Origin: Curtobacterium sp. UNCCL20
Lineage (GTDB): Bacteria > Actinomycetota > Actinomycetes > Actinomycetales > Microbacteriaceae
DNA length: 64,000 bases
Assembly: GCF_900101675.1 (NCBI RefSeq)
Contig: NZ_FNKG01000002.1
Span: forward strand, 81,005-145,004
Reading direction: 5' to 3'
The position numbers and the translations under genes are program-made. Below are positions 1-44,194 of this stretch, in pieces. The notes beneath the pieces are model-generated. The model ran no database searches. It saw only the letters and a list, made by a program, of their open reading frames with translations, and was not told where the DNA came from. Position 1 is the first letter of the stretch, and every line of letters begins with the position of its first letter.

Positions 1-859
1 AGCCGTGCAGGGTCACCGGAGCGCCCCGAGCGGCGCGGGCGAGTGCCGACCGTGCGACCCCGTCGCCGTAGACGTCGACCTGCACACGGTCGCCGAACGA
101 CTGCGCGGCGCGGACGAGCACGTCCGGACGTTTCTCCGGCGACAGCCGACCAACCCACACGATCCGGAGGGGCTCGTCCGGTCGCAGTGTGCGGACCTCG
201 GCAGCGTCGATCGCCTCCAGCACGGACGACTCGATGCCGTTCGTCAAGACGGTCACGGGCGTCCGGACCCCGCGGTCGACGAGCTTCGCGGCGAAGTGCG
301 CGGACGGCACCACGACGTGGGCGCTGGCCCGGGACTGCGCGAGCATCACCCGCCACATCCGTCGGCCGGTCCGCGTCGCGGTGTACGGGGTGTCCGCTGC
401 CACCCGGATGCCCGCGGCGCTGACCTGCCGTCCGTGCAGCCACGCCAGCAGGACGGTCGTCACGGCGGGGACCGGCAGGACGTTCCGCGTGTAGACGTCG
501 ATCCGGCCGTGCATCGTGTGCACGACCGGGATGCCGAGGTCGTGGGCGGCCCGGAGACCGCCGAGGGCGGCGAACATCTCCGAGTGGGTGTGCACGACGT
601 CGATCCGGCGCTGGGCGAACTCGCGGCGGAGGACGGCCCGCAGCCGCCCCGGTGACCAGGCGAACGGGTACCCGTCCGGCCGGAAGACGCCGGAGACGGG
701 GAGCGCCACGACGCCCGGGTCGGTGGACGGCCCGGCCAGCGGGCAGAAGACGACCGCCTCGTGTCCGGCGTCGCGGAGGCTCTCGGCCAGGGCCCGCACG
801 GCGGTCTGGACGCCGCCGAGCGTCGGCAGGTAGTAGTCGGTGACGAGGGCGATCCGCAC
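1..859 (-). CDS. GT4-family glycosyltransferase (3' end outside window)
   Basis: Transfers a sugar from a nucleotide-sugar donor, probably to a lipid or glycan at the inner membrane face. The reading frame starts with the residues VRIALVTDYYLPTLGGVQTA, the classic N-terminal Rossmann start of GT4 enzymes (GGVQ loop), followed by HTHSEMFAALGG and HTMHGR, and later IVWVGRLSPEKRPDVL, the start of the C-terminal donor-binding domain. About 286 codons are present and the donor E-x7-E motif region is missing because the gene runs off the window. Start GTG at 857-859 is chosen because a TAGGCT hexamer lies 7 nt upstream. It is divergent from the OleD-like/KAS III module, so it may glycosylate that module's product (inference). 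Family confidence high, substrate unknown. Confidence 0.88.
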   Translation of the reverse strand, partial: MRIALVTDYYLPTLGGVQTAVRALAESLRDAGHEAVVFCPLAGPSTDPGVVALPVSGVFRPDGYPFAWSPGRLRAVLRREFAQRRIDVVHTHSEMFAALGGLRAAHDLGIPVVHTMHGRIDVYTRNVLPVPAVTTVLLAWLHGRQVSAAGIRVAADTPYTATRTGRRMWRVMLAQSRASAHVVVPSAHFAAKLVDRGVRTPVTVLTNGIESSVLEAIDAAEVRTLRPDEPLRIVWVGRLSPEKRPDVLVRAAQSFGDRVQVDVYGDGVARSALARAARGAPVTLHG

Positions 860-872
860 ACGAGCGAGCCTA
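860..872 (-). promoter_or_regulatory. -10 element of a leaderless promoter
   Basis: On the minus strand TAGGCT (872 to 867) is followed by 7 nt and then the GTG of the glycosyltransferase. There is no Shine-Dalgarno sequence. The spacing fits transcription starting at or next to the start codon, as is common in actinomycetes. Confidence 0.5.
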
Positions 873-974
873 GGGCGCGGCCGAGACGGACCGCCGAGAC
901 GGACGGCCGCGGCGGACGGCAGCGACCTGCGGCGGGGACGAGTCGCCGGTGGCGTGGCCCGCTCCGGTGCCGCC

Positions 975-987
975 TAGGATCGGGGAC
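975..987 (+). promoter_or_regulatory. -10 element of a leaderless promoter
   Basis: TAGGAT at 975-980 lies 7 nt before the ATG at 988, with no ribosome binding site. This decides the start of the reductase at 988 rather than the upstream in-frame GTG at 949. Confidence 0.55.
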
Positions 988-1980
988 ATGGGGGAGAGTG
1001 CGCTCGTCACGGGCGCCAGCGGGTTCCTCGGCGGCCACGTCGTCCGGGACCTGCGGGCGCACGGCTACGCGGTGACGGCTGCGGGACGTCGAGCAGAGGC
1101 GCTGCCCGACGGGCCGACGTTCGTGGGCGACCTCGACGCCCTCGCCGGTGCCGACGTCGCGGCGGACGTCGTCGTGCACTGCGCCGCGCTGTCCTCGCCC
1201 TGGGGTCGCTGGTCGGAGTTCGAGCACGCGAACGTCACCGGGACGGCGCGGGTCCTGGAGTACGCCCGCCGCGTCGGAGCACGGCGCCTGGTGCACGTCT
1301 CGTCGCCCGGCATCTACGCGGCACCCCGCGACCGGCTCGCCATCCGCGAGCACGAGGTCGATCCGAGCCGCCCCATGAACCACTACATCCGTTCGAAGCT
1401 GCACGCCGAGGCGCTGCTCCGAGCCGCGTCCGCCGACCCCACCGGGCCCGAGGTCGTCGTGCTCCGCCCCCGCGGCATCATCGGGGCCGGTGATCCCGGC
1501 CTCGTGCCGAGGCTGCTCCGGGTGCACGAGCGCGTCGGCGTCCCGCTCCTGCACGGCGGTCGTGGGCTCGTCGACCTCACCGCGGTGGAGAACGTGGCGC
1601 TCGCCGTCCGGCTCGCCGCCGAGGTGCCCGGCGCGGCGGGCACGGCGTTCAACATCACGAACGGCGATCCCCGGCCGTTCGTGTCGCTGCTCGACCAGCT
1701 GCTCACCGGGCTCGGCCTGCCGCTCCGCCACCGTCGCCTGCCGGCCGAACTCGTGTACGGCGTGGCCGGGGTGCTCGAGGCCGTGTGCGGAGTCCTCCCC
1801 GGACGCCCGGAGCCGCCCGTGACCCGGTACACGGTGTCGACGATCACGCACTCGCAGACCCTCGACATCAGCCGCGCGCGGGAGGTCCTCGGCTACGAGC
1901 CCGTCGTGACGGTCGACGAGAGCCTGGCGAGCTACGCCGAGGCGTACTCCGCGACCCCCGGCGGTGCTGCCCGTGGGTAG
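988..1980 (+). CDS. NAD(P)-dependent epimerase/reductase, OleD-like (extended SDR)
   Basis: An extended short-chain dehydrogenase of 330 residues. The N-terminus carries the nucleotide-binding GASGFLGGH glycine motif and the active-site YIRSK (Y-x3-K) lies near residue 130. The second half closely resembles the OleD at 57909-58880: both have TNGDPRP/TNGEPRP and an EPP-[VM]-TR-[YF] segment followed by a similar C-terminal end. OleD reduces a beta-keto acid to a beta-hydroxy acid, so a keto-reduction in lipid synthesis is likely, though 3-beta-HSD-like sterol/sugar epimerases are alternatives. First gene of a tight three-gene unit: the next gene overlaps by 17 nt. Reductase fold is sure; the OleD-type role is inference. 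Confidence 0.85.
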   Translation: MGESALVTGASGFLGGHVVRDLRAHGYAVTAAGRRAEALPDGPTFVGDLDALAGADVAADVVVHCAALSSPWGRWSEFEHANVTGTARVLEYARRVGARRLVHVSSPGIYAAPRDRLAIREHEVDPSRPMNHYIRSKLHAEALLRAASADPTGPEVVVLRPRGIIGAGDPGLVPRLLRVHERVGVPLLHGGRGLVDLTAVENVALAVRLAAEVPGAAGTAFNITNGDPRPFVSLLDQLLTGLGLPLRHRRLPAELVYGVAGVLEAVCGVLPGRPEPPVTRYTVSTITHSQTLDISRAREVLGYEPVVTVDESLASYAEAYSATPGGAARG

Positions 1981-2857
1981 CCTCCGCGCGATCGCGTGCG
2001 GCTGGACCACGCACGGCGTGCACCAGCTGCTCCGCGGCGCTCCGCGTGAGCGCCGGGTCTTCCCGGCGAACGCCTTCCTGTACGAGGAGGGCGAGCGCCG
2101 GGTGCTGTTCGACACCGGGTACGCGCCGTTCCCGTGGCGCACCGGGCTGGCCGGCTGGGCGTACCGGCGCCTCCTGCCGCCGACGGTCCCCGCGGGCGCG
2201 AGCATCGGCGAGCAGCTCGACGCGGACACCGTGACCCACGTCGTCCTGTCGCACCTGCACCCGGACCACATCGGCGGTCTCGGGGCGTTCCCGCACGCCA
2301 CCGTGGTCGTGACGGAAGCCGTCCGCCGGACGATCGCGTCGCCGACGCTGCGCGCGGGTGTGCTCGACGGACTGCTGCCCACCGGGCTCGCACCGCGCCT
2401 CCAGGTCGTCCCGGAGACGGCGTTCCGGACCCGCGGGACGGACGCAGCCACGGACACTTCCGCGACCGCCGCCCTCCGCACCGCCGACCTGTTCGGCGAC
2501 GGCGCCTACCGGCTCGTCGACCTGCCCGGCCACGCTGCCGGGCACGTCGGCGCGCTCGTCGAGGGCCGGGCACTGCTCGCCGGCGACGCCGCGTGGGGAC
2601 GCGACCTGCTCGGCGAGGAGCACCGCATCCGCGCGGTGCCGCGCGCCGTCGCGCACGACGACGCCGCCCAGGCCGCGACCGCACGCCTGCTGCTGGACGT
2701 CGAACGGCAAGGCGTGCGACTGCTCTTCAGTCATGACGACCACCGGACGGACGTCGACATGCTCAGCAGCGACGACGCGGCTGACGACGAACCGGCCGCC
2801 CACGCGGCGGACGACGACCCGGCCGACCACGCGGCCGACGAAGGGGGACCATCATGA
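1964..2857 (+). CDS. MBL-fold metallo-hydrolase
   Basis: Metallo-beta-lactamase-fold hydrolase of 297 residues. The metal motif HLHPDH (H-x-H-x-D-H) lies near residue 91, followed by GHAAGHVG with a further metal His, LLAGDAAW with the bridging Asp, and FSHDDH near the end. Family members hydrolyse thioesters, lactones and phosphoesters, so in this unit a thioesterase or lactonase acting on the KAS III product is plausible (inference). The last 30 residues form an Asp/Ala-rich acidic tail with repeated DDEPAAHAADDDPADHAADE-like text. The GTG at 1964 overlaps the reductase gene; GTG 1973 is an alternative. The stop overlaps the KAS III start by 4 nt, indicating translational coupling. Confidence 0.85.
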   Translation: MLPVGSLRAIACGWTTHGVHQLLRGAPRERRVFPANAFLYEEGERRVLFDTGYAPFPWRTGLAGWAYRRLLPPTVPAGASIGEQLDADTVTHVVLSHLHPDHIGGLGAFPHATVVVTEAVRRTIASPTLRAGVLDGLLPTGLAPRLQVVPETAFRTRGTDAATDTSATAALRTADLFGDGAYRLVDLPGHAAGHVGALVEGRALLAGDAAWGRDLLGEEHRIRAVPRAVAHDDAAQAATARLLLDVERQGVRLLFSHDDHRTDVDMLSSDDAADDEPAAHAADDDPADHAADEGGPS

Positions 2858-3795
2858 GGAGTTGCCGCATCAGCGGGTGGGGGACGTACCTGCCGGAGAC
2901 CACGGTGACGTTCCCGTCGCGGTCAGGCGAGGTCACGCGGTACCGCATCGCGGACGACGTCTCGCAGCTCGACATGCTCGCCACCGCCGCCGCGGACGCG
3001 ATCCGCCGCGCGGGGCTCGAGCCCGAGGACGTCGACTGCGTCATCGCCGCGTGCGCCGCCGGCGTGCAGCCGATCCCGTGCACCGCCGCCCTCGTCATGG
3101 AGCGCGTCGCACCCGGAGCACGAGCCGCCGCCCTCGACGTCAACTCGACCTGCACGAGCTTCATCACCGCCGTCGACATCGCGTCGCGCTACCTGGCGGA
3201 CGGGGAGTACGAACGGATCCTCATCGTGTCTGGGGACGTCGGGACACGCTTCCTCGACCCGGAGCAGCGCGAGTCGTTCGAGCTGTTCTCCGACGCCGCC
3301 GCGGCGGTCGTGCTGACCCGTGGCGACGCCGGGCAGGGGGTCCTCGCGAACCTGCAGCAGACGTGGCCGGAGCACGCCCACGACACCGAGCTCCGTGGCG
3401 GGTTGTCGCGGTTCCCGGCGCACGACTACGCGGACGGCGACCCGGCCGACTACCGGTTCGACATGCACGGCCGCCGGGCGCTGATGGGCATGCTCACGGT
3501 CCTGCCGCCGTTCTTCGACCGGTTCTTCGAGAAGGCGGGGTTCGGGCTCGAGGACGTCGACCTGGTGGTCCCGCACCAGGCGAGCGGCGCGCTCGGCATC
3601 GCGATGCGACGCATCGGCATCCCGCGGGACGCCTACGTCGACGCGGTCGCCGAGTACGGGAACATGGTGTCGTCCTCGGTGCCGTTCACGCTGGCGCGGT
3701 GCCTCGACGACGGTCGGGTCGGGCCCGGGGACACCGTGCTGCTGTGCGGTACGGCTGCGGGCCTCACCGCGAACGCGCTGGCGCTGCGGCTCTAG
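2854..3795 (+). CDS. KAS III-like condensing enzyme (3-oxoacyl-ACP synthase III family)
   Basis: Thiolase-fold enzyme of 313 residues. The catalytic triad is complete: C100 in DVNSTCTSF, H241 in VVPHQAS and N270 in YGNMVSSS. This predicts acyl transfer onto Cys and either decarboxylative condensation (FabH-like), head-to-head condensation (OleA-like) or acyl transfer. The position of the OleA catalytic Glu (LEPS in the OleA of this window) reads PIPCTA here, so OleA chemistry is not assured. It starts with ATG overlapping the MBL-fold stop, preceded by a GGGGGA ribosome site, and is followed by a strong hairpin terminator. The gene is not in a fab operon, so a role in a dedicated lipid or secondary product is more likely than bulk fatty acid initiation (inference). 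Confidence 0.85.
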   Translation: MRSCRISGWGTYLPETTVTFPSRSGEVTRYRIADDVSQLDMLATAAADAIRRAGLEPEDVDCVIAACAAGVQPIPCTAALVMERVAPGARAAALDVNSTCTSFITAVDIASRYLADGEYERILIVSGDVGTRFLDPEQRESFELFSDAAAAVVLTRGDAGQGVLANLQQTWPEHAHDTELRGGLSRFPAHDYADGDPADYRFDMHGRRALMGMLTVLPPFFDRFFEKAGFGLEDVDLVVPHQASGALGIAMRRIGIPRDAYVDAVAEYGNMVSSSVPFTLARCLDDGRVGPGDTVLLCGTAAGLTANALALRL

Positions 3796-3806
3796 ACGGG
3801 ACGAAC

Positions 3807-3854
3807 GACGGCCTGGAGGCGCGTGCCGGGGCCGCCACGTGCCTCCAGGCCGTC
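3807..3854. terminator. Hairpin terminator between convergent genes
   Basis: Arms 3807-3825 and 3836-3854 pair over 19 bp with one G-U pair and a 10-nt loop. The core is CCTGGAGGC. It sits between the plus-strand KAS III gene and the minus-strand gene ending at 3898, so it can serve both. It belongs to a hairpin family repeated in the window. Confidence 0.75.
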
Positions 3855-3897
3855 ACCGGTCCCGTTCACGGCGGAGCGACCGGATCACGCAGACGGG

Positions 3898-4260
3898 TCA
3901 GCGGTGCGTGGTGCGGCGGTGCGTCGGCCGGCGGTGCCCGAACAGGGCGGCCAGCAGCCGCGCGAAGCGGGGCTCGGGTGCGGGCTTCGGCTCGATCGCC
4001 TGCGTGGGCGTCCGGAACGCGAGGTCGTGCAGCATGTTGCGCTTGGAGCCGTCCCAGTTCGCGAAGAGGTAGGCGCCCCCGAGGAACGACATGCTCCGGA
4101 CCGGGGTGCGCTTCCACGAGTCGGCGCGCACGTAGTACCCGGCGTGCCCGGCGTGGATGTGCTGGATCACGGTGTCGACGTCGATGACGCTGGTGGTCGT
4201 CACGACGGCGGTGATGCCCGTTCGGTCACGGGCGACGTACTCGATGAGGTGTTCAGTCAC
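3898..4260 (-). CDS. Small protein, possibly DUF3892-like
   Basis: A 120-residue protein of unknown function. The N-terminal 80 residues have the spacing of DUF3892-type domains: a basic segment with ITAV, then VIQHIHAGHAGYYVR (I-x2-I-x-A-G followed by Y-x-V), VRSM, GGAYLFANWD and NMLHDL. The C-terminal 30 residues are basic (RFARLLAALFGHRRPTHRRT) and may bind nucleic acid or lipids. GTG start at 4258-4260 without a clear ribosome site. It stands alone between the KAS III terminator and the lipoprotein gene. The DUF assignment is from pattern only. Confidence 0.6.
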   Translation of the reverse strand: MTEHLIEYVARDRTGITAVVTTTSVIDVDTVIQHIHAGHAGYYVRADSWKRTPVRSMSFLGGAYLFANWDGSKRNMLHDLAFRTPTQAIEPKPAPEPRFARLLAALFGHRRPTHRRTTHR

Positions 4261-4333
4261 GAGGGGCTCTTGATCGCAGTTCGCGTTCGTCGCACGGAGG
4301 GGAACGCACGACGAGGCTTGGCCGGAATCGTCA

Positions 4334-43117: not shown

Positions 43118-44194
43118 TCAGCCGCGCAGCGCCTCCGCCAGCTTCACCCGGCTGCCGGTGCGCAGCAGCGCGTTCTCGTAGATCCGCGCGCCGATGACGA
43201 CCACCAGCACCACCGAGGCCGCGACGATGACGAGGGACAGGACCGGTTCCCACCACGCCGCCGTCCCGAGGAAGATCCGCATCGGCATGCCGATCGGCGC
43301 GCTGAACGGCACGTAGGACATCACGCCGAGGATCGTCGGGTTGTTGTAGGCCACGATGATCAGCAGGTACGGGATCATCACGAGCATCATCACCGGGGTG
43401 GTGACGCTGCCGACGTCCTCCTGGCGGGACACGAGCACGGCGGCGGCGGCGAACAGCGAGGCGATGAGGACGAAGCCGATCGCGAAGAACCCGACGAACC
43501 ACAGCATGCTCGGGCCGAGGACGGTGAACATGTTGTCCTGACCGGTGACCGCCAGCGTCACCGCTGCCGCGATCGCCACCGCCACGATCTGCGCGAACGC
43601 CATCACGCTGTTGCCGAGGACCTTGCCGGCGAGGAGCGCCCGGGCCGGGATCGCCGCCATCAGGATCTCCACGACGCGGGTGGACTTCTCCTCCACCACG
43701 CTCTGCGCGATCGACTGGCCGAACGTCACCGCGGAGGCGAAGTACACCACGCCGAACGCCAGCGCCACGATGTAGATGAGTCCACCGGGGATCGCGTTCG
43801 GGTCGAGCAGCTCGATCCGCGGGGTGACGCTCAGCGCCGACACCACGTCGGTCGGGGCGTCGTCGAGCCCGACGACCTTGTAGCCGAGCGGGTCGTCCGA
43901 CGGCAGGACCGCGGCGTCGACGTCGCCGCTCGTCACGAGCCGTTCCGCGGCGGCGGCGGTCGGCGCCTCCGTCACGTCGAGGCCCTTGCTCGTCGGGAGC
44001 TGCACGCCGTCGACGACCGCGACCGGGGTGGTGTCGCCCGCCGTGGCCTTGCTGACGACGCCGCCGACGACGATGGACGCGACGACCATGAGCACGAGGA
44101 TGCACGCCGAGACGATGAACGCCTTGCTGCGGACCCGGGCCTGGATCTCGCGGGCGGAGACGAGTCGCACCGCCTGCACGAAGGAGCTGTTCAC
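43118..44194 (-). CDS. ABC-2 type exporter permease (NatB-like)
   Basis: A 358-residue membrane protein. One helix near the N-terminus (KAFIVSACILVLMVVASIVV), a large extracytoplasmic domain (about 50-165), then five or six helices; VEEKSTRVVEILMAAIPARA is the characteristic ABC-2 NatB cytoplasmic motif and VLVSRQEDVGSVTTPVMML follows. Works with the ATPase at 44191-45072, possibly in ion or drug efflux. GTG 44192-44194 overlaps the ATPase stop by 4 nt. Confidence 0.88.
   Translation of the reverse strand: MNSSFVQAVRLVSAREIQARVRSKAFIVSACILVLMVVASIVVGGVVSKATAGDTTPVAVVDGVQLPTSKGLDVTEAPTAAAAERLVTSGDVDAAVLPSDDPLGYKVVGLDDAPTDVVSALSVTPRIELLDPNAIPGGLIYIVALAFGVVYFASAVTFGQSIAQSVVEEKSTRVVEILMAAIPARALLAGKVLGNSVMAFAQIVAVAIAAAVTLAVTGQDNMFTVLGPSMLWFVGFFAIGFVLIASLFAAAAVLVSRQEDVGSVTTPVMMLVMIPYLLIIVAYNNPTILGVMSYVPFSAPIGMPMRIFLGTAAWWEPVLSLVIVAASVVLVVVIGARIYENALLRTGSRVKLAEALRG

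Follow-up and report, generated by a model that had tools for sequence, protein, structure and literature searches.

A ligase-free KAS III, reductase and metallo-hydrolase gene set in Curtobacterium, part of a cassette found across bacteria

The window analysed here is a stretch of 64,000 nucleotides from Curtobacterium sp. UNCCL20 (contig NZ_FNKG01000002.1, positions 81,005 to 145,004). Near its start lie three plus-strand genes in consecutive, overlapping open reading frames (ORFs), encoding an OleD-like extended short-chain dehydrogenase/reductase (SDR), a metallo-beta-lactamase (MBL)-fold hydrolase and a condensing enzyme of the beta-ketoacyl-acyl carrier protein (ACP) synthase III type (KAS III; KAS below); a family 4 glycosyltransferase (GT4) gene is divergent from them. 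Directly observed here are the gene set, its order and conservation, its active-site residues, the absence of a ligase and the coupled presence of GT4. The three genes are a subset of a cassette that joins KAS III and an OleD-like SDR to an MBL hydrolase and a PaaK/F390-like ligase of the TIGR02304 family. They almost certainly form one biosynthetic unit, as an earlier note on this DNA had proposed from its letters alone.

The SDR gene (988..1980; 330 amino acids [aa]; NAD-dependent epimerase/3beta-hydroxysteroid dehydrogenase type) runs from an ATG at 988 to a TAG ending at 1980; position 860, where the earlier note opened the unit, is a mere edge of the intergenic region. The gene for the lactonase-like MBL hydrolase (1964..2857; Pfam Lactamase_B) starts at GTG 1964 or GTG 1973 and ends with the TGA at 2857, and its overlap with the SDR gene is accordingly either the 17 nucleotides (nt) first reported or 8 nt. 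The KAS gene (2854..3795; 313 aa; MxnB/FabH-related; ATG 2854, TAG 3795) overlaps the MBL stop by 4 nt, as had been read. In five Curtobacterium copies of the three genes, the ratio of nonsynonymous to synonymous substitution rates (dN/dS, NG86) lay between 0.06 and 0.50 over 30 pairwise values, so that SDR, MBL and KAS all look constrained; by gene, the ranges were 0.06-0.23 for SDR, 0.09-0.36 for KAS and 0.22-0.50 for MBL, which is the fastest changing of the three. Given these ratios and the recurrence of the block in relatives, its arrangement is not due to chance.

That recurrence is clear close to home. The order GT4-SDR-MBL-KAS III, which the earlier note had suggested looking for, is kept as GT-SDR-MBL-(ligase)-KAS at nine of ten genus or family loci with long flanks (L041, L046, L048, L050 and L094-L099); a contig end cuts the tenth, L096, after ligase and KAS. 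Elsewhere the order differs. At L100-L102, from another genus, the KAS is divergent and a relative of the window's GT4 was not seen. The closest named locus is that of Curtobacterium flaccumfaciens JUb65 (L128), with a KAS 91% identical. A full KAS was found in 4 of 35 congeners (79-92% identity), with a short remnant in genome G025. In a set of 60 congeneric genomes, KAS is present in 14 (the window's own included, as is G903 with a split KAS; the G025 remnant was counted as absent), GT4 (E ≤ 1e-60) is present in exactly the same 14, and both are absent from the other 46. The proposed link to GT4 is thereby borne out. Since GT4 and KAS are neighbors and so could be gained or lost together, this co-occurrence marks one unit of inheritance, not one function. 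In G903 (G903:C8:122362-123378), the KAS lies in two pieces or frames, as a pseudogene or an assembly error, which suggests that decay of the unit also happens. In a sample of the family, KAS was found at E ≤ 1e-40 in 9 of 198 other genomes, two of them congeners. Weaker relatives occur in 55 of 396 genomes of the phylum (E ≤ 1e-33, own included); none of the 11 such loci with long flanks (L103-L113) gave a match to the cassette SDR, MBL or ligase at E ≤ 1e-8. Some labels used here denote the same genome and are not independent cases (G805 is L128; G882 is L129 and L099; G222 is L130 and L041; G101 is L199 and L042).

The cassette extends across bacteria. One genome per species was scanned with an alignment of 15 cassette KAS sequences as seed, and the best 80 of at least 275 relatives were followed; neighboring genes were called by tblastn (E ≤ 1e-8) within 7 kb of KAS, contig ends cutting some loci. 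Among these best 80 named loci, 68 have KAS, SDR, MBL and ligase, 6 have KAS, MBL and SDR, 2 have KAS, SDR and ligase, and 4 have KAS alone. The cassette was seen in Bacillota, Pseudomonadota, Actinomycetota, Bacteroidota, Bdellovibrionota, Chlamydiota, Verrucomicrobiota, Gemmatimonadota, Chloroflexota and Fusobacteriota, with oral streptococci and Legionella among its carriers. In Fusobacterium vincentii the order is SDR-MBL-ligase-KAS, matching that in the window's relatives, and ligase-free three-gene sets recur in Naasia, Arthrobacter, Lysobacter and Oscillochloris. Of 72,556 plasmid records, 26 gave a match to the ligase and 27 to KAS, 22 being common to both. KAS-SDR-MBL-ligase was annotated in Escherichia coli, Ketogulonicigenium and Paracoccus, and with an added ATP-grasp gene in Paenibacillus and Pontibacillus; two Pseudomonas megaplasmids hold more scattered forms, in which several kb, up to about 15, separate the ligase from its partners. 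Among 5,426 complete E. coli genomes, 672 match a seven-gene form, and in 671 the match spans 80% or more of that form; uropathogenic isolates and strain 83972 are among the carriers. In E. coli NRG 857C (L122:4001-10882) this form is chromosomal, includes PAP2, fatty acid hydroxylase and desaturase genes, and sits between narI and tRNA-Tyr.

The genes that accompany the cassette vary. We counted relatives within 2.5 kb of the best 80 loci at E ≤ 1e-12, with queries drawn from some of the same loci and families assigned by Pfam. A GT1, GT4 or GT21 relative was present at 21 loci and a sulfotransferase relative at 5, one of these KAS-only. GT4 adjoins all seven actinobacterial loci L128-L134 and three Legionella loci; GT1 occurs in streptococci and Enterococcus, and GT1 with GT21 in Enterococcus, Lysobacter, Nocardioides and Gemmatimonadetes. 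Other sets combine ATP-grasp with GNAT or, in E. coli and some others, PAP2 with the hydroxylase and desaturase. To judge by family names, these companions suggest a decorated lipid. A protein of about 215 aa follows GT21 in both Fusobacterium (L121:3940-4584) and Enterococcus (L141:3076-3726); the two are 38% alike, and the Fusobacterium one had no Pfam or NCBIfam match.

What the window's version lacks is the adenylating enzyme. The earlier note had taken OleB and OleC to be the missing partners; neither is indeed encoded in window positions 1-4200, as read from the ORFs, and a separate oleABCD set lies at about L007:3265-7885, but the partner actually absent is the PaaK/F390-like ligase. 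In relatives L041 and L098, a ligase gene of about 1.25 kb stands between MBL and KAS, part of one is seen beside KAS in L096, and L042 (Nocardioides) has it in the same cluster, flanked by MBL and SDR. The TIGR02304 model ("F390 synthetase-related protein") scored 450, 427 and 300 bits on the L041, L098 and L042 ligases, over its cut-off of 252; it thus marks the full cassette in all three relatives scanned, although it models one protein only. Pfam gave no match for these three ligases, and the best solved relatives of the cassette ligase are phenylacetate-CoA (coenzyme A) ligases. The window's genome had no ligase match at E ≤ 0.001. Of 16 genomes searched at E ≤ 1e-10, four gave a match (G774, G834, G222 and G101) and 12 did not, these being six congeners (G022 only 73% complete), G787, G882, three of genus g395, and G201; we count 11 of them as KAS-bearing relatives without a ligase, since the G201 KAS falls outside the cassette group. 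A ligase match was likewise absent from the records of L132 (Arthrobacter), L180 (Lysobacter) and L203 (Oscillochloris), L172 (Lysobacter) had a weak one only (32%, 50 bits), and those of L133 and L134 (Occultella gossypii) have the ligase. TIGR02304 matched none of 296 genomes of the phylum and one of 14 control genomes (Deinobacterium chartae); the 296-genome sample probably held no carriers, because relatives found by protein search do carry the family. On the KAS tree, the state of the ligase has to change three times among 11 actinobacterial rows, and still three times after ten outside rows, all ligase-bearing, are added. Repeated loss of the ligase would be the simplest history. Lysobacter L172 and L180 share the order KAS-MBL-SDR-GT21-GT1 with no ligase nearby, a second lineage in which the three-gene core is joined by glycosyltransferases.

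The KAS itself retains a full Cys-His-Asn (C-H-N) triad: Cys100 (3151..3153), His241 (3574..3576) and Asn270 (3661..3663), all on the plus strand, are invariant in 65 of 65 cassette-labelled KAS sequences. The position of OleA Glu117 is taken by Ile74 (3073..3075, plus strand) and is I, L, M or V in all 65, whereas the window's own OleA has Glu. That glutamate is essential to condensation in the Xanthomonas campestris OleA, according to excerpts of PMC7064751 and PMC4578411, and the OleA pattern EPxx[AS]x(14,18)DxxNACL, as given in an excerpt of PMC7158056, was matched by the window's OleA alone among 84 sequences. The top NCBIfam match of the window KAS is PRK07204/NF005541 ("beta-ketoacyl-ACP synthase III"; 240 bits versus a cut-off of 402). 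Three other cassette KAS proteins have the same best family at 303-334 bits, so that all four fall below the cut-off of a model whose function line names no pathway. In a PDB profile search, MxnB (336 bits) and CorB (326) came ahead of FabH proteins (at most 287), PqsD (184) and OleA (about 130). The fold search gave Z scores of 42.3 for MxnB, 40.3 for FabH, 39.5 for CorB (tied with FabH), 39.4 for PqsD and 38.0 for OleA. As judged from these comparisons, the KAS is closest to MxnB/CorB and FabH and is without the OleA glutamate. Like MxnB and CorB, it has the C-H-N triad and no Glu at the OleA/PpyS position. Those two enzymes join two chains into a pyrone without a glutamate (excerpts of PMC4578411 and PMC5724707), and MxnB serves a type I polyketide synthase (PKS) line (PMC5724707, same excerpt). 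The cassette differs from them in having SDR and MBL instead of a PKS line, and the window's branch also lacks the Trp32 loop.

In FabH, Trp32 binds the CoA adenine. The N-terminal loop that carries it is missing from the window KAS and from every one of the 21 rows that make up its branch. This branch, the window KAS plus 20 others, has a support of 100 in the Shimodaira-Hasegawa-like approximate likelihood ratio test (SH-aLRT), inside a 59-row group at 94, and consists of exactly those cassette-labelled rows without the segment that holds Trp32 (for L051, a long row, the absence is possibly just a truncated extraction). With a mean predicted local distance difference test (pLDDT) score of 96.4, the KAS fold is predicted to be intact without the loop. 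The tree was made by a quick method with SH-aLRT support alone and no bootstrap; four of its 65 rows labelled as cassette are KAS-only loci (L170, L174, L196 and L197), and 24 of the 80 loci from the scan are not in it, most of them being close relatives of loci that are. Six cassette-labelled rows (L100, L101, L179, L196, L197 and L203) fall outside the 59-row group, beside two cassette-free rows.

The SDR is 36% identical to the window's own OleD over residues 6-313, so the kinship first claimed for the two holds; its best NCBIfam match is OleD (NF042422), at 172.5 bits against a cut-off of 580. The MBL hydrolase carries the HxHxDH metal motif (2252..2269, plus strand; H94, H96, D98 and H99, numbered from 1973), and all seven di-metal ligands (this motif, a second His, an Asp and the last His) are invariant in 40 of 40 MBL sequences. 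Three sequences with internal stops in their extractions (the L050 and L102 MBL and the L147 SDR) were set aside. Its AlphaFold model (mean pLDDT 89) has acyl homoserine lactone (AHL) lactonases as its nearest solved folds (Z about 25), and these also rank first in the profile search; 4-pyridoxolactonase stands with AiiA, AiiB, GcL and AhlX among the best structural matches. The MBL thus resembles AHL lactonases in fold and in its full di-metal ligand set but departs from them at Trp208, three residues past the metal-binding Asp, which is Trp in 39 of 40 cassette sequences and Phe in one; five aligned lactonase sequences (two AhlX, two GcL and AiiB) have Tyr there. In AiiA, that Tyr is catalytic. 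Curated lactonase models also scored well below their cut-offs (AttM 53 versus 390 bits, AiiA 32 versus 375). Together, the sequence and model comparisons favor hydrolysis of a lactone or a thioester as the probable reaction. The C-terminal tail of the MBL (window 2760-2857, about residues 265-294) is acidic, of low complexity and low in pLDDT.

We read the unit as the Curtobacterium branch of the widespread KAS-SDR-MBL-ligase cassette, with the ligase missing and GT4 added, and propose for it a stepwise route; we give this reading about an even chance. The KAS would load an acyl chain on Cys100 and condense it with another thioester (malonyl or beta-ketoacyl), with no glutamate base of the OleA type. 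The SDR would then reduce the resulting ketone to an alcohol, and the di-metal MBL would hydrolyse either the thioester or a lactone formed internally. A ligase step, missing here, would follow in most of the bacteria found and re-activate the acid for joining to an amine, an alcohol or a carrier. Last, GT4 would glycosylate the product. The core product would most likely be beta-hydroxy-acyl, with substrates, reactions and the order of steps all inferred. That the product is a lipid is likely; that the chemistry is exactly as drawn is doubtful. The earlier note's idea of a lipid-type route with a reduction and a hydrolysis is supported to this extent.

The note had framed that idea as an Ole set in which an MBL hydrolase replaces OleB and OleC, and an Ole-like route to a beta-lactone or olefin could be envisioned here, with KAS as OleA, SDR as OleD, MBL for OleB and the genome's OleC acting in trans. 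OleD is the closest NCBIfam family of the SDR, oleABCD lies in the same window, and the four kinds of enzyme in OleABCD are all represented in a complete cassette: a thiolase-fold condensing enzyme, an SDR related to OleD, an adenylating enzyme and a hydrolase. A glycosyltransferase is also described in an ole-type cluster (excerpt of PMC7064751). Yet the genome has its own oleABCD, the KAS lacks the glutamate and the pattern that excerpts of PMC7158056 and PMC7064751 attach to OleA and is much closer in score to MxnB and FabH than to OleA, the SDR is far below the OleD cut-off, the hydrolase is a metallo-enzyme, and the cassette ligase, absent here, is of PaaK/TIGR02304 type rather than OleC. 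We therefore consider this framing decidedly unlikely. A route like that to the Pseudomonas quinolone signal (PQS) is unlikely as well. In it, a PqsD-like KAS would extend an activated acid, with a PqsE-like MBL thioesterase and a PqsA-like ligase, to give a signal molecule that is later glycosylated. The PQS set likewise contains a ligase (PqsA), a KAS III and an MBL thioesterase (PqsE), and PqsD is among the close solved structures of the KAS. Against this, the MBL best matches AHL lactonases, the ligase is nearest phenylacetate-CoA ligases, and the cassette adds an SDR, which is not known to take part in PQS synthesis. The absence of PqsE from the 50 MBL fold matches listed carries no weight either way.

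Very unlikely, in our judgment, is a small fatty acid route in which a FabH-variant KAS supplies membrane lipids with special starter units and its neighbors are only loosely connected. The FabH fold and the triad would suit it, but the FabH model scores 145.3 bits on the window KAS, under its cut-off of 292.1, the Trp32 loop is missing, separate FabH-like genes in the same genome branch elsewhere on the KAS tree, and the same partners recur in unrelated phyla. A plain FabH was rejected on score, tree position and the missing loop. The ligase-free state could also mean that the Curtobacterium unit is a relic, its remaining genes decaying once the ligase was lost; a patchy presence in 14 of 60 congeneric genomes, the split KAS of G903 and the remnant in G025 are what one would expect of it. 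We regard this as unlikely, given that dN/dS stays within 0.06-0.50 in all pairs tried (0.09-0.36 for KAS), that all catalytic residues are kept and that the three-gene form recurs in Naasia, Arthrobacter, Lysobacter and Oscillochloris.

Several points, besides the possible decay just described, weigh against reading these genes as a branch of one shared pathway. The 68 of 80 full cassettes are not a prevalence, since the scan was seeded with cassette KAS and only the best 80 of at least 275 relatives were taken. Accessory gene content varies from lineage to lineage to a degree that leaves a single shared product uncertain. There is no single clean cassette clade in the KAS tree, L100 and L101 (g395), which have SDR and MBL, falling outside. 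In Foldseek, MxnB (3.2e-31) and Staphylococcus aureus FabH (3.4e-31) are level, so that a fold search alone would not decide the nearest relative. Finally, gain or loss of GT4 and KAS as an island would give identical co-occurrence.

Taken broadly, the cassette may represent a pan-bacterial lipid pathway undescribed as a unit, in which a glutamate-free, MxnB-like KAS III, an OleD-type reductase, a Trp-type MBL and a PaaK/F390-like ligase form a four-step core that would be a largely non-homologous counterpart of OleABCD. Its product would be variously glycosylated, sulfated, joined to amines, hydroxylated or desaturated in E. coli, oral streptococci, Fusobacterium, Legionella, Paenibacillus and actinobacteria, among others, and Curtobacterium would have dropped the ligase. 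We hold this tentatively, at slightly less than an even chance; if it is true, the ligase-less Curtobacterium would accumulate or glycosylate the free acid. We found no description of the cassette as a unit, including the seven-gene form of E. coli, in the open-licence PubMed Central (PMC) literature. In the excerpts available, a Desulfotalea psychrophila gene annotated as F390 synthetase is linked to a fatty acid synthesis cluster (PMC2649909), and a Pseudomonas syringae transposon mutant lies in a "coenzyme F390 synthetase" that is not shown to be a cassette gene (PMC9823363). Roughly one complete E. coli genome in eight carries the cassette, yet it is apparently undescribed as a unit; judging by its genes, the product would be a lipid or a signal. 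The ligase-free branch in the window offers a ready-made comparison for the contribution of the adenylating step. Because its organism also has oleABCD, the Ole and cassette routes could be told apart in one organism; Curtobacterium strains yield only traces of olefins, according to an excerpt of PMC7158056.

Around the unit, the window holds the first 286 of 399 aa of GT4 (2..859, minus strand; Pfam Glyco_transf_4 and Glycos_transf_1), the gene continuing past the window edge to its full length (L006:10663-11859) and starting 128 bases from the SDR. Beyond GT4 is a patatin-like gene, for which no homologue was found at 15 actinobacterial loci (some ending near GT, and two pairs being the same place); it is probably outside the unit. 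PADLOC, consulted for anti-phage defence, gave no match for SDR, MBL, KAS or ligase. Downstream, the "strong terminator" of the earlier note stands in part: a very stable hairpin (3795..3866, plus strand; -60.1 kcal/mol, z -7.55, with 0 of 200 shuffles equally stable) lies at the 3' end of the KAS gene as a possible terminator, but it has no T run, hence no U tract, and a terminator scan of 700-4300 found none. A tRNA-Val lies at 43885-43964 of the window. Three congeners (G028, G017 and G015) have the same flanking genes without the roughly 34 kb that separate them in the window (about 9200-43100), so that the cassette and oleABCD, about 51 kb apart in the window, are 17-20 kb apart in those three.

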